Below, one piece after another: positions 9,403 through 18,447 of a DNA stretch of 46,944 nucleotides (within the stretch, counting starts at the first letter, position 1; every line of letters starts with the position of its first letter). The notes under the pieces are model-generated. The model was given only the letters and a program-made list of their open reading frames with translations, did not search any database and was not told where the DNA came from. The DNA is taken from the NCBI RefSeq assembly GCF_001617365.1, contig NZ_LVJR01000119.1, positions 1 through 46,944 of the forward strand. The letters run 5' to 3'. Both the position numbers and the translations under genes were made by a program. This stretch comes from Rhodanobacter sp. FW104-R8. Its GTDB lineage: Bacteria > Pseudomonadota > Gammaproteobacteria > Xanthomonadales > Rhodanobacteraceae.

Positions 9403-12261
9403 CTACTTTGCCGGCTTGGCGTCGGCGTCGAGCACCTGCACCTGGCCGAGATTCAGCGCGCGGATCGGCGCCTCGATCTTCTTGAGGTCGCCGACGATCA
9501 CCCAGGTCAGCCGGTCCGGGTGGATGACCTCCTTCGCCGCCGCCTCGACCGCGGCGTCGGTCTGCGCCTCGATGCGCGACTTCAGGGTCTGCACGTAGTC
9601 GTCCGGCCGCCGGTACTGGGCGATGCCCTGCAACGCCCCCATCACCGCCGTGGTGGTCTGGTAGCTGCCCGGCATGCTGCGCACGTCGCCGACCTTGATC
9701 TTGTCGATCTCCTGCGCGGTCAGCGGCTTGTCGCCGATCACGCCCTTCGCCTCCTTCAGCATCTCGGCCACCGACGGCGCGGTCCGGTCGGTCTGCACCG
9801 GCGCGTACAGCATGAACGGGCGCTGGCCCACCGCGTTCTGCAGGAAGCTGAAGGCGCCGTAGGCCCAGTGCTTGTCCTCGCGCAGGTTCATGTTGAGGCG
9901 CGAGGTGAAGGTGCCGCCGAAGGCACCGTTCATGGTCTGGATCTCCAGGTTGTTCGGTGCCTCGGTGGACGGCGCCAGGCTGCCGGCGAGGATCAGGCTC
10001 TGCTGCGCGCCGGGGCGATCGACCAGGTACACGCGCGCCTGCGCCGGTGGCGCCACCTTGCCGACGTTCTTCGCCGGGACCTTGCCGGCCGGCGCCTTCC
10101 AGTTGCCGAACGCCGCGTTCAATTGCGGGATGATCTTGTCCAGCGTGGTGTCGCCGGCGACCAGGATCTTCATGTTGTCCGGCCGGATGAAGTCGCCGAT
10201 GAACGCGCGCATGTCGGCGGCGCTCAGCGACCTGATCGAGGCCTCGGTGCCGGAGCCAGTGAACGGGATCGCGTAGGCATGGCCCTGCCCGTACAGCAGC
10301 GGCGGCAGGGTGCGCAGCGCGATGCCGGTCGGCTGGCTCTTCTCCTGGGCGATGCGCGCCAGCCACTGGCCGCGCAGGCGGCCGATGTCGGCCTCGCGGA
10401 ACGCCGGATTGCGCACGATGTCGGCGAACAGCTCGAGCGACGGCTTCAGCTGGTCGTCCAGCGCGTTCAACGAGGCATTGCAGTAGTCCAGCCCGCAGCC
10501 GCTGGCGATGATCGCACCGAGGCGCTGCTTGCGCTTGGCGATCTCGACCGAATCGAGTTCCTTGCTGCCCTCGTCCAGCATCGCCATGGTGAAGCTGGAG
10601 GTGCCCAGCTTGCGGCCCTGGTCGGCCGCGTAGCCGGCGTCGAACAGCAGCTGCAACTGCACCGCCGGCACCGTGTGGCGCTCGGCCAGGATCACCTCGA
10701 CGCCGTTGTCCAGCTTGCCGCGCTGCAGGGCGGGAAAGCTGAGGTCCGGGAACGTGCCGACCGCGGGCACGCCTTTGCCGCGGTCGACGTCGCTCTGCAC
10801 CGTGCGGTAGTCGCCCCTGGCCGACAGCACCGGCGCCGGCGCGCCGCCGGCTGCGGCACGGCCGGCCACGGTGGCCATGTCGGTGGCCTCGACCTTGCCC
10901 GGCACCACGGTCAGCGTGTAGTCGCCCTTGGCGATCCACCGGTTCGCCACCGCGGCGACGTCGGCCGGGGTGGCCGCCATGAATTCCTTGAAGTCCTTCA
11001 AGTAGGCAGCCGGATCGTTGCGGTACAGCTGGCCCTGGGCCAGGATCGAGGCCTGCGAGTTGACCTTTTCCAGGCCGCGCACGAACGAGGCGCGGGTTTC
11101 CGTCTTGACCCGCGCCAGCTCGTCGGCGCCGGGGCCGTCCTTCAGGAATTTCCGCCACTCGTCGGCGATCGCCGCCTCCACCCTGGCCGGATCGGCGCCT
11201 TTCTTCACGTCCACCTGCAGGTTGAACATGCTGGCCAGCACGTGCTGCTCGACGTCGACCGAGACGTCGTCGGCCAGCTTGTCCCGGTAGACCAGCCGCT
11301 GGTACAGCCGCGAGGTCTTGCTGCCGCCCAGCACGGCGGCGGCCAGCTCCAGCAGGTTCTCGTCGCGGCTGCCGCGGCCCGGCACGTTCCACTCGCGGTA
11401 GATGCGCACCTGCGCCACGTTGTCGGTCATCGTGCCGCGGGTCGAGCCGTGGCGCGGCGCCACCCACGGTTGCGGCCGCGGCACCCGCGGGCCGGCGGCG
11501 ATGTCGCCGAAGTACTTCAGCATCTTTTCCTTCGCCAGCGCCGGCGTGATGTCGCCGGACAGCACCGCCACCGTGTTGGCCGCGCCGTAGTAGTCGCGGA
11601 ACCACTGCTTCACGTCGGCCAGCGAGGCCGCGTTCAAATCGTCCATCGAGCCGATGGTGTCGTGGTGGTACGGATGGTTGGCCGGGAACGCCTCGGCCTG
11701 GATCAGCTCGCCGGCGCGGCCGTACGGCTGGTTCTCGCCCTGGCGCTTCTCGTTCTGCACCACGCCACGCTGCTCGTCCAGCTGCGGCTGGCCGATCGCG
11801 CCGAGCAGGTGGCCCATGCGGTCCGATTCCATCCACAGCGCCATGTCCAGCGCGGTGGTCGGCACCGTCTCGAAGTAGTTGGTGCGGTCGAGCCAGGTGG
11901 TGCCGTTCTGGTCGGTGGCGCCGGCCAGCTCGAACGGCTTGAAGAACTCGTCCTTGTGGTTCTCCGAACCCTGGAACATCAGGTGCTCGAACAGGTGCGC
12001 GAAACCGGTCTTGCCCTTCGGCTCGTACGACGAGCCCACGTGGTACCACACGCTCACCGCCACCACCGGCGCCTTGTGATCCTCGTGCACCACCACGGTC
12101 AGCCCGTTAGGCAGGGTGAAGCGCGTGTAGGCCAGTTCGGGGATCTGCTGCTGCGCCGTCGCAGCCGCCACGGCGGTGTCGGGTGCGGCCAGCGCCAGCG
12201 GCATGCCGCCGGCCAGGGCGAGCAGGCCGGCGATGAGCAGGGCGAGCGGTTTCTTCGTCAC
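9403..12261 (-). CDS. M16-family zinc metallopeptidase (two-domain, secreted)
   Basis: A 952-residue periplasmic or exported insulinase/pitrilysin-family protease. A signal peptide (about residues 1-25, ending LALA) precedes the first M16 domain, which carries the inverted zinc motif HLFEH at residues 89-93 and a downstream acidic stretch around NEKRQ for the third ligand. The second half is the catalytically silent M16 repeat (from about residue 500), so the two halves would form the peptidase chamber. Family members degrade peptides. The gene stands alone between the DUF4156 gene and a divergent sigma-54 promoter region. Confidence 0.93.
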   Translation of the reverse strand: MTKKPLALLIAGLLALAGGMPLALAAPDTAVAAATAQQQIPELAYTRFTLPNGLTVVVHEDHKAPVVAVSVWYHVGSSYEPKGKTGFAHLFEHLMFQGSENHKDEFFKPFELAGATDQNGTTWLDRTNYFETVPTTALDMALWMESDRMGHLLGAIGQPQLDEQRGVVQNEKRQGENQPYGRAGELIQAEAFPANHPYHHDTIGSMDDLNAASLADVKQWFRDYYGAANTVAVLSGDITPALAKEKMLKYFGDIAAGPRVPRPQPWVAPRHGSTRGTMTDNVAQVRIYREWNVPGRGSRDENLLELAAAVLGGSKTSRLYQRLVYRDKLADDVSVDVEQHVLASMFNLQVDVKKGADPARVEAAIADEWRKFLKDGPGADELARVKTETRASFVRGLEKVNSQASILAQGQLYRNDPAAYLKDFKEFMAATPADVAAVANRWIAKGDYTLTVVPGKVEATDMATVAGRAAAGGAPAPVLSARGDYRTVQSDVDRGKGVPAVGTFPDLSFPALQRGKLDNGVEVILAERHTVPAVQLQLLFDAGYAADQGRKLGTSSFTMAMLDEGSKELDSVEIAKRKQRLGAIIASGCGLDYCNASLNALDDQLKPSLELFADIVRNPAFREADIGRLRGQWLARIAQEKSQPTGIALRTLPPLLYGQGHAYAIPFTGSGTEASIRSLSAADMRAFIGDFIRPDNMKILVAGDTTLDKIIPQLNAAFGNWKAPAGKVPAKNVGKVAPPAQARVYLVDRPGAQQSLILAGSLAPSTEAPNNLEIQTMNGAFGGTFTSRLNMNLREDKHWAYGAFSFLQNAVGQRPFMLYAPVQTDRTAPSVAEMLKEAKGVIGDKPLTAQEIDKIKVGDVRSMPGSYQTTTAVMGALQGIAQYRRPDDYVQTLKSRIEAQTDAAVEAAAKEVIHPDRLTWVIVGDLKKIEAPIRALNLGQVQVLDADAKPAK

Positions 12262-12350
12262 GGTGAACCTCCTGTTTCACGGATAAGTCTCCGCAGGCTA
12301 GCGACGCCCCACGGGCACCGCAAATGACTTGTGGCACGGTCGCCGCCGGG

Positions 12351-12394
12351 TTGTCCGGTTGTCCGGCAGCGGGCGGACAGCTGTCCGCGGACAA
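12351..12394. promoter_or_regulatory. Cluster of TTGTCCG/CGGACAA motifs, probable activator (UAS) sites
   Basis: Two tandem TTGTCCGG octamers (12351-12366), then CGGACAG-CTGTCCG (12374-12387) and CGGACAA (12388-12394). The last two units form TGTCCGCGGACA, a perfect 12-bp palindrome. Five half-sites within 44 bp, centred about 100 bp upstream of a sigma-54 promoter, are what an NtrC-type enhancer-binding protein would use. The specific activator is unknown. Confidence 0.6.
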
Positions 12395-12431
12395 TGCTGC
12401 GGCTGGCCAATCCATTTATTTATATTTTAAA

Positions 12432-12444
12432 AATCAATGGCTTG
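12432..12444 (+). promoter_or_regulatory. IHF consensus site
   Basis: AATCAATGGCTTG matches the IHF core WATCAANNNNTTR at every position and is preceded by an AT-rich tract (12411-12431). It lies between the activator-like repeats and the -24/-12 promoter, the usual place for DNA bending at sigma-54 promoters. Confidence 0.65.
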
Positions 12445-12460
12445 AATCCAAATGGCTGCC

Positions 12461-12475
12461 TGGCACGGGGATTGC
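12461..12475 (+). promoter_or_regulatory. Sigma-54 (RpoN) -24/-12 promoter
   Basis: TGGCACG-N4-TTGC is an exact match to the sigma-54 consensus, with the invariant GG and GC separated by 10 bp. Transcription would begin about 12487, roughly 35 bp upstream of the small ORF. Confidence 0.8.
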
Positions 12476-12520
12476 TCAGAGGAAAGCGCAGGAACCTTCC
12501 CCTCATACGGAGACATGACC

Positions 12521-12724
12521 ATGAAATTCGAGACCATGATGTTGCGCGGCCTGTTCATCGCCTGCCTGGCGGTCTGCGGCCTGATCCTCGCCGCGATGGT
12601 GACGACCACACCGGCATCGGTGCAGCTCGCCGCCAACGGCGGCATCGGCGCGATCCTGCTGGCCGCACCGACCAGCTGCGCGTTGCGGCCGGACGGCGTG
12701 GTCTGCCCGCAGATCGGCGGCTGA
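12521..12724 (+). CDS. Unrecognised 67-residue membrane or secreted peptide under sigma-54 control
   Basis: I do not recognise this protein. It begins [10 protein letters not shown], has one hydrophobic helix or signal-like segment (about residues 11-27), a polar linker, a Gly-Gly at 40-41, a short hydrophobic stretch (GAILLAAP) and a C-terminal tail with two cysteines (C53, C62) ending PQIGG. Two further cysteines (C15, C19) lie in the helix. An ATG two codons earlier (12515) is too close to the GGAG ribosome site (12509-12512), so 12521 is the better start. The evidence that it is real is the perfect sigma-54 promoter, IHF site and activator repeats in front of it. No homolog or function is claimed. 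Confidence 0.62.
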
Positions 12725-12765
12725 GCACTCGACGCGGATCGGCACGGGCACGCGATAATGGCGGA

Positions 12766-13233
12766 ATGCTGCACGTCATCCTGTTTCGCCCCGAGATCCC
12801 GCCGAACACCGGCAACGTGATTCGCCTGTGCGCGAACACCGGCGCCGCGCTGCACCTCATCCGGCCGCTCGGCTTCACGCTCGACGATGCCCGGCTGCGC
12901 CGCGCCGGACTGGATTACCACGAATACGCCAGCGTCGCGGTGCATGACGACCTGGCCAGTTGCCTTAATGCGATCGGCAGGCCGCGGGTGTTCGCCTTCA
13001 CCACCCGCGGACGGGTTGCCCACGTCGACGCCCGCTTCGCCGACGGCGACGCGCTGCTGTTCGGCTGCGAGACGGCCGGCCTGCCGGCCGACGTGCTGGA
13101 AGCGATTCCCGCCCAACGACGCCTGCGCCTGCCAATGTGCCCGGACAGCCGCAGCCTGAACCTGTCGAACACGGTCGCCGTGGCCGTCTACGAAGCGTGG
13201 CGCCAGCTGGGCTTTCCCGGCGCGACCCCGTAG
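12766..13233 (+). CDS. trmL: tRNA (cytidine/uridine-2'-O-)-methyltransferase TrmL
   Basis: A 155-residue SPOUT methyltransferase that 2'-O-methylates the wobble base of certain tRNALeu species using S-adenosylmethionine. The start [20 protein letters not shown], the LIRPLGF strand, the FGCETAGLP motif and the C-terminal knot [15 protein letters not shown] are characteristic of TrmL/YibK. Length matches the family (about 157). The TAG stop (13231-13233) is the TAG of a family B palindromic repeat. Confidence 0.95.
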
Positions 13234-13325
13234 GAGTGCACCCTGTGCGCGAACGGCGGGCATCGCCCGCCCATGTTTATGGCGAGGCAACCGCAAGAGC
13301 ATCGCGCACAGGGTGCGCTCCTACA
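13229..13325. repeat. Composite palindromic repeat, family B with a nested family A core
   Basis: The outer arms are family B (GTAGGAGTGCACCCTGTGCG and CGCACAGGGTGCGCTCCTAC). Inside sits GGCGGGCATCGCCCGCC, the family A core. The left TAG is the trmL stop. The element occupies most of the gap between trmL and ubiJ. Confidence 0.85.
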
Positions 13326-18265: not shown

Positions 18266-18447
18266 ACCGGGCCCCCGCCCTGGGCGGGAGACAGCTCCGG
18301 CCTACGCCCTCCATGGTCCTTTCCTGACCCCGCAGGGCCATCCCGGCCCCTTCCCGCGGCACCGGAGGTCACCTCCCTGGCTTCGGAGCGCCCTTAGCAC
18401 ATGTCTATCGGTCATGGCACGGCGCATGCTTGTCTATTTTTACGGAA

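Follow-up and report, generated by a model that had tools for sequence, protein, structure and literature searches.

MgrB is a small membrane regulator of PhoQ, and Hok and TisB are type I toxin peptides of the membrane, of a build comparable to that of the protein described here. Two DNA elements are of importance for what follows: the -24/-12 element of sigma-54 promoters, TGGCAYRNNNNTTGCW, in which the GG and the GC lie 10 bp apart, and the IHF consensus, WATCAAN4TTR. In a review on MacB, AcrZ is described as a modulator of AcrAB-TolC, room is left for small proteins acting on MacB, and a coupling between permease and kinase is presented for BceB and BceS (PMC5985334). Sigma-54 was linked to the cell exterior by Francke et al. 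in 2011, and the terms HlyD, ABC, and MacB are absent from its main text (PMC3162934). No description of the operator, the regulon, or the peptide family reported below was found in the literature searched, most subscription papers lying outside the reach of that search.

The window, namely the entire stretch of DNA that was analyzed, comprises 46,944 nucleotides from Rhodanobacter sp. FW104-R8. In a first-pass annotation it was proposed that a complete sigma-54 module within the window, switched on by a dedicated activator, drives a gene for a small membrane or secreted protein. That reading is supported by the sequence comparisons presented here, which also extend it to a family of peptide genes and to an ABC transporter operon that encodes its own two-component regulator.

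The control region of the window gene

Two activator half-sites of the form TTGTCCG, read directly on the forward strand, lie at positions 12351-12357 and 12359-12365, and a further distal half-site, CGGACA, was likewise read directly on that strand at 12374-12379. The palindromic upstream activating sequence (UAS), TGTCCGCGGACA, to which no strand is assigned, occupies positions 12382-12393 with its center ∼99 bp before the predicted transcription start, and its CGGACAA arm runs to 12394. An IHF-consensus site, AATCAATGGCTTG, is placed between the UAS and the promoter at 12432-12444 on the forward strand. The promoter itself, TGGCACGGGGATTGC, extends from 12461 to 12475 on the forward strand, displays the -24/-12 arrangement of sigma-54 promoters as TGGCACG-N4-TTGC, and predicts a start at ∼12487. 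A GGAG ribosome-binding site at 12509-12512 (forward strand) is located 8 nt before the ATG at 12521, which begins the ORF for the 67-residue small membrane protein, P0001 (12521-12724, forward strand, the stop codon ending at 12724). Note that an alternative in-frame ATG at 12515 would lengthen the product to 69 residues, yet it lies merely 2 nt past the GGAG. The start kept among the homologues is that at 12521, with the residues MK[FL]E, and a GGAG-like site precedes it in most of the homologues displayed. All of the elements listed in the first-pass annotation, from the half-sites, the IHF site, and the promoter to the GGAG and the ORF, were found base for base. The genome also encodes RpoN, as indicated by a match to PF04552 at C82 with an E-value of 2.2e-68.

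The 3.72 Mb genome contains four exact copies of the TGTCCGCGGACA palindrome and eight exact TGGCACGN4TTGC sites. For three of the four palindromes, one of the eight promoter sites follows within 100 bp downstream, an arrangement whose rough chance is 4e-11. These three combinations precede the window ORF, a gene at C11 for a 52-residue paralogue (MKYESMILAGLF...), and an operon at C27 headed by an HlyD adaptor. The earlier view that a promoter of this quality seldom arises by chance, and the suggestion that its repeats would lead to a regulon within the genome, are both borne out at the level of sequence by this arrangement. When only the window was scanned, the palindrome was found 10 times at two or fewer mismatches against 4.2 expected, a count reached in 1 of 100 shuffles, and the promoter was found 19 times at two or fewer mismatches against 29.9 expected. 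By itself the window scan is weak evidence, and the weight rests on the exact matches and their arrangement. A chance motif is ruled out by the genome-wide coincidence and by the absence of control matches among the matches listed in the searches described below, namely those of the family, the genus, the order-level sample, and a second family.

Two other sites deserve mention. The fourth exact TGTCCGCGGACA palindrome, at G000:C113:11617-11628 (L003), has no sigma-54 site nearby as judged by script. Within the window, TGGCACGGCGCATGC at 18415-18429 differs by one mismatch from the promoter pattern and falls just before an epimerase/glycosyltransferase-like cluster, which runs from 18470 onward. 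Among the matches listed, none to TGTCCGCGGACA with two or fewer mismatches is near it.

Conservation of the module

A composite pattern, TGTCCNNGGACA-N50-80-TGGCN7TTGC, was searched for in related genomes with the same pattern read backwards as the control. It was found in 114 of 147 family genomes, representing 23 of 26 genera, whereas the reversed control gave none among the matches listed. At the genus level it was found in 43 of 45 genomes, and in all 38 of those with a completeness of ≥90% and a contamination of ≤5%. Genomes with the pattern mostly contain two or three sites. Homologues of P0001 were identified in 81 of the 147 family genomes (17 of 26 genera), and an orthologue of the C27 response regulator in 140 of them.

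Among 30 loci retrieved on account of their P0001 homologues, the exact module is present in 29. It is also present in 64 of 79 further homologue loci, drawn from Rhodanobacter, Dyella, Frateuria, Fulvimonas, and Luteibacter (all Rhodanobacteraceae) and from MAGs. In 14 of the 15 loci without it, the ATG is preceded at a distance of 57-65 bp by TGGCN7TTGC, and at least two half-sites are present; the fifteenth, L399, was rejected as a spurious partial match. Twenty extra copies, selected mostly for the absence of the exact module, were inspected as well. A peptide was obtained by script from 17 of these, the exceptions being L421, L423, and L431, and a sigma-54-like site lies 58-72 bp upstream in each of the 17. 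L424 and L384 are one locus. The window ORF carries an operator-IHF-(-24/-12) module common to many paralogous peptide genes. As far as can be judged from its recurrence before homologues, the module is indeed complete and belongs to the ORF, as had been claimed, and the conservation of both in relatives is evident.

Among the 52 family genomes of an order-level sample, motif and peptide occur together in 43, both are missing in five, the motif is found alone in three, and the peptide alone in one (Fisher p 1.2e-4, in a test that ignores kinship among genomes sharing ancestry). Two assignments are doubtful: G023 was counted as carrying the motif, which in that genome precedes a transposase-like gene, and G001 was counted as carrying a peptide, for which the E-value is 6e-5. 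With both reversed, the counts become 41, 5, 4, and 2, respectively (p 9e-4).

The conserved downstream neighbor of the window ORF, at 12766-13233 on the forward strand, encodes a trmL-type tRNA methyltransferase, a name given by reading. In 71 of the 79 loci, the 500 bp that follow contain a motif of the IPPNTGN type indicative of trmL, and no terminator-like site was found in the window at 12200-12900, as would be anticipated were the ORF a translated leader controlling trmL. Eight of the 79 loci, however, lack the trmL motif, seven of these being family members, the C11 paralogue in the same genome is flanked by other genes, and the helix of the product is under constraint at the amino acid level. 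A trmL leader was ruled out as the main reading on these three grounds, and it is held to be highly improbable.

Genes preceded by the promoters

A set of 198 distinct promoters was assembled from loci L059-L118 and L149-L296 (30 family hits, 30 P0001-homologue loci, 30 genus hits, and 118 picked among the matches listed). The sample is non-random, identical sequences were counted once, and the classes were assigned by regular expressions and read through by eye in the rows displayed, with the peptide rows L104, L215, and L237 called via an overlapping upstream ATG. In this set, 91 promoters precede peptides, 75 HlyD adaptors, 13 FtsX-type permeases, and 19 other genes. Removal of the homologue-fetched loci leaves 176 promoters found by pattern alone, of which 69 precede peptides, 75 HlyD adaptors, 13 FtsX-type permeases, and 19 other genes. 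The 19 other targets include alpha/beta-hydrolase-like and secreted-looking proteins, named by reading only, and eight of their promoters are without an extra half-site.

The spacing of the UAS is conserved in that the match length is 92-96 bp in all 91 peptide promoters. For the HlyD promoters it is 90-95 in 68 of 75 and 82-83 in the other seven, a shortening by roughly one turn of the helix. The 60 bp preceding the palindrome contain a further TGTCC/GGACA in all 91 peptide promoters (against a mean of 9.3 after shuffling), 69 of 75 HlyD promoters (8.4), 12 of 13 FtsX promoters (1.4), and 11 of the 19 others (2.0). An exact IHF consensus is found in 32 of the 91 peptide promoters (shuffled mean 0.165) and in three of the 75 HlyD promoters (0.08).

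In genome G112, seven near-identical cassettes consisting of the operator, the sigma-54 promoter, and a gene for a 43-residue peptide (L413 and L415-L420) are scattered among repeats containing GTAGGAGCCCACCCTGTGGGCGA, and these copies suggest that the module is spreading inside genomes. In the window, trmL is followed at 13230-13275 by a stretch resembling such a repeat, gtaggagtgcaccctgtgcgcgaacgg. Peptide genes also occur in tandem behind one sigma-54 promoter (L398, L387, L100, and L102), and in L387 and L398 the second copy is without its own promoter as judged by script.

The peptide family

The family to which P0001 belongs comprises 661 protein clusters at E<=0.01. None of the best 120 of the 661 has a Pfam domain, and the named ones are "hypothetical" or "uncharacterized". 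For P0001 there was no match in Pfam or PADLOC and no sequence match in the PDB. In NCBIfam only matches below cut-off were obtained (E 0.11 and 0.22), in PHROGs only weak ones (E 0.006 and 0.015), and in Rfam, for positions 12000-13300, two at chance level with neither near the gathering score. A known, named family was ruled out by these searches. In the first-pass annotation the product could not be placed in a family, and whereas no named family was found for it here either, the ORF is a member of a large multi-copy family that had gone unseen. The possibility that the ORF is not a gene was ruled out by the homologues, the residue constraint, and the conserved start, and it is practically certain that the family is real and has a shared promoter.

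The 99 distinct peptides fall into three length ranges, namely 28-29 residues (n=10), 43-53 residues (n=28), and 63-73 residues (n=61). All 61 long forms have exactly two cysteines in the tail, arranged as C-x8-C in 57, and none of the 38 shorter forms has any. The ten members of 28-29 residues consist of the helix alone with no tail. In P0001, a single transmembrane helix is predicted for residues 2-28 (12524-12604, forward strand), with a conserved face composed of E4, L8, F12, C15, C19, and M26. The Cys-x8-Cys loop of the tail, residues 53-62 (12677-12706, forward strand), is probably periplasmic, and the loop, written CxLPPDGVVCP, is conserved. The model predicted by AlphaFold contains one helix, from residues 2 to 28, with pLDDT values by block of 80-95, and a tail of low confidence, the mean pLDDT of the whole model being 66.6.

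In 30 representatives whose cores are less than 75% identical, M1, E4, L8, and F12 are invariant, K2 and M26 are each kept in 29, C19 in 28, and C15 in 24. The helical conservation moment peaks at 100 degrees, with a permutation p of 0.004-0.04 depending upon the range, the narrower ranges being the weakest. For pairs among 34 homologues of 67 residues, the median pN/pS is 0.38 over residues 1-28, 0.94 over residues 29-51, and 0.50 over residues 52-67; these are crude values, calculated by NG86 without correction for pairs with pS of 0.15-0.6. From the conservation, the pN/pS values, and the lengths, it follows that selection is strongest on a short, one-faced membrane helix and that the tail is optional. 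Selection on the tail loop (0.50) may reflect an exported function of the long forms. A lipoprotein signal was dismissed by eye in that hydrophobic residues run on beyond C15 and C19. On the basis of the model, P0001 is very probably a single-helix membrane protein. With one helix and fewer than ∼100 residues it has the dimensions of small membrane regulators, and the earlier description of the product as a small membrane or secreted protein appears sound from its sequence.

The size of the peptides, their single helix, and their multi-copy genes, tandem or dispersed, are also features that would be expected of stress-induced membrane toxins or depolarizing peptides built like Hok or TisB. The genes are found, however, behind a conserved activator-dependent promoter, no Rfam match near the gathering score occurs at 12000-13300 (antisense RNAs outside Rfam being possible), and the conservation of one helix face suggests specific binding. 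Such a function is considered improbable.

The HlyD operon and its two-component regulator

The operator and the -24/-12 element are common to the window ORF and the C27 operon, which encodes, in order, an HlyD/RND-type adaptor, an ABC ATPase, eight permease ORFs, a peptidase-like protein named by reading, a response regulator, and a histidine kinase. The adaptor scores above the cut-off of TIGR01730. The ATPase is of the MacB type, with a Walker A motif and LSGGQQQR as read from its frame. Eight permease ORFs were counted; the two that were scanned gave MacB_PCD and FtsX and match, below cut-off, the two halves of ADOP permeases. The gene for the response regulator shares its strand with the HlyD promoter, which is ∼15 kb upstream of it, and is followed by that for the kinase. 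The regulator (L056:9673-11034) is of the NtrC family and consists of a receiver domain, a sigma-54 activator (AAA+) domain, and an HTH_8 (Fis-type HTH) domain; the sigma-54 contact loop reads GAYTGA in place of GAFTGA. The kinase contains HAMP and HATPase domains and two hydrophobic stretches separated by a short loop.

Eight proteins in the genome match the sigma-54 activator domain over the cut-off, six strongly (E<1e-60) and two weakly. One of the five other strong ones exceeds the NCBIfam cut-off for NtrC, the only label to do so; FleQ-like and PilR-like proteins are presumably to be found among the remaining activators. A short activator-domain protein at C11:14842-15339 (L053) displays GAFTDA where GAFTGA would be expected, and reading revealed no receiver domain in it.

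Since the operator stands at the regulator's own operon and RpoN is encoded, the C27 response regulator is the natural candidate for the dedicated activator that had been postulated. Given the operator shared by the ORF and the operon encoding the regulator, we consider it very likely that this protein drives the window gene. Several observations stand against this reading. The contact loop of the regulator has GAYTGA, 19 of the 198 promoters precede unrelated genes, and an exact IHF site is found in a minority of the peptide and HlyD promoters. Moreover, in G023 no orthologue of the regulator was found at E<=1e-90, yet a peptide gene is present there, preceded by a sigma-54 site and one half-site. 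G023, along with the five further strong activator-domain proteins, would be accommodated if the UAS were bound by another activator, such as C10:58666 or C11:14842, and the C27 regulator were a coincidental neighbor. The operator, however, precedes the HlyD operon, which in the same genome carries the regulator, and the HlyD operator recurs both in the family and in other families, as is the usual pattern in autoregulation. A different activator is decidedly improbable.

Age and spread of the system

The order-level sample consisted of 250 genomes, 52 from the family and 198 others. The response regulator, at E<=1e-150, was found in 51 of the 52 and 67 of the 198, the exact pattern in 46 and three, and matches to the peptide profile in 44 and two, respectively, the last two being partial (E 4e-4). 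The peptides are almost confined to the Rhodanobacteraceae (Rhodanobacter, Dyella, Frateuria, Fulvimonas, and Luteibacter), and some family genomes carry the regulator without peptides. Since the regulator is common without peptides outside the family and also occurs without them inside it, the system can do without the peptides.

An operator specific to the family was at one point entertained and was dropped after HlyD promoters from genomes without the exact pattern, within the family and beyond it, were read. From 20 HlyD regions without the exact pattern (HlyD was not found in L435, L437, and L447), TGTCC/GGACA and TGGCA[CT] were present in all 17 promoters found, and eight contained the exact palindrome. 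The apparent absence of the pattern outside the family is due in part to CTGC or GTGC at -12 and to a shorter spacing. With an adapted motif, 27 of 149 genomes of a second family gave a single hit each, 26 at HlyD (25 called by script and L459 by eye) and one at a peptide. The match length at HlyD is 79-82 in the 25 called by script and 92 in L459. The spread of the regulator and of the HlyD operator beyond the family makes the transporter operon and its operator look older, with the peptides having been added in one family. The one peptide hit in the second family, L454 (G425), and L322, a 3.85 kb contig of the MAG Lysobacterales RIFOXYA1, are Rhodanobacter-like loci; both contigs are probably misbinned, and perhaps they belong to the same MAG.

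Three matches to the exact pattern lie outside the family. In G241 and G247, which are of one genus, the module precedes (L297 and L298, after position 1583) an unrelated ORF of 55 residues beginning MNYRRSTRAQ. This ORF encodes one hydrophobic stretch, starts 33 bp past the promoter, and has an AGGAGG site in both genomes. Four synonymous and five non-synonymous codon differences separate the two copies, and two related genomes prove little. The arrangement would fit a second small membrane protein having been recruited under this control. The third match is that in G288, TGTCCCTGGACA.

Discussion

In the mechanism that we propose, the histidine kinase would phosphorylate the response regulator, multimers of which would bind the TTGTCCG/CGGACAA sites. 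With the DNA between the UAS and the promoter bent by IHF, the regulator would remodel the RNA polymerase-sigma-54 complex at 12461-12475, such that the exporter and the small proteins rise together. The 67-residue product would insert into the inner membrane as a single helix with its N-terminus in and its C-terminus out, and the face formed by E4, L8, F12, C15, C19, and M26 would dock onto a partner in the membrane, for which the permease complex and the kinase are the likeliest candidates. The disulfide-prone tail loop would be an add-on of the long forms.

Taken as a whole, the best explanation is that P0001 is a target of a dedicated regulon and an accessory or feedback membrane protein, a reading that we rate at about an even chance. 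That the partner is the exporter or its two-component system, the protein being a subunit of either and not an exported peptide or a toxin, is plausible from the shared operator and the helix face, albeit somewhat short of even. We further suggest, tentatively, that a lineage-specific and multiplying family of one-helix proteins of 28-73 residues was recruited through copying of the module into an older, autoregulated two-component ABC system, where these proteins, with two cysteines on their conserved helix face, might serve as interchangeable intramembrane tuners of FtsX/MacB-like permeases or of the kinase.

The chief rival explanation is that the peptides are the substrates for export, signaling or antimicrobial in function, with the Cys-loop tail being released and carried out by the HlyD/MacB-type exporter. 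The operator shared with an exporter operon would be consistent with this, as would the conserved Cys-x8-Cys loop with its pN/pS of 0.50 and the resemblance of the adaptor to DarC (E 2.7e-24, far below the cut-off of the model). A separable tail is not a general feature, however, as tail cysteines are missing from 38 of the 99 peptides and ten members are bare helices. In addition, constraint is strongest in the helix, the linker looks near-neutral, and no cleavage signature was identified by eye. Weakened by these helix-only members, export of the peptides is regarded as unlikely, though with an appreciable chance.

An orphan family of one-helix proteins thereby gains a likely controller and a testable role. 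Through relationship, all 661 clusters can be associated with one type of promoter, with a candidate regulator, and with a system that may be their partner. The bare-helix members of 28 residues represent a very small unit with which to study how small membrane proteins are used. The role of multi-permease MacB/ADOP-like operons in this bacterial order becomes testable as well. If the peptides do prove to be tuners, ADOP/MacB-type transporters would be subject to a new class of control by small proteins.

The components of the C27 system can be compared with several that have been described. Its adaptor is similar to DarC (NF038010), the adaptor of the darobactin exporter, but scores 85.7 bits against a cut-off of 450. 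The response regulator, with its receiver, AAA+, and Fis-type HTH domains, resembles AtoC (PRK11361) and PrsR (TIGR02915). Its scores, however, are 356.6 against 714 and 351.4 against 502.6, respectively, and being so far below the NCBIfam cut-offs it is not an equivalog of either. As in BceAB-BceRS, FtsX-type permeases are encoded together with a kinase having a short loop (PMC5985334). The C27 system differs from BceAB-BceRS in its NtrC-family sigma-54 regulator, its HlyD adaptor, and its eight permease ORFs. AcrZ and MgrB share with P0001 the single short inner-membrane helix and production along with the system thought to be modulated. P0001 differs from both in having neither a Pfam match nor an NCBIfam match over the cut-off that would signal homology to a named family, and its own family is further set apart from AcrZ and MgrB by the sigma-54 promoter, the many paralogues, the conserved intramembrane cysteines, and the optional Cys-loop tail.
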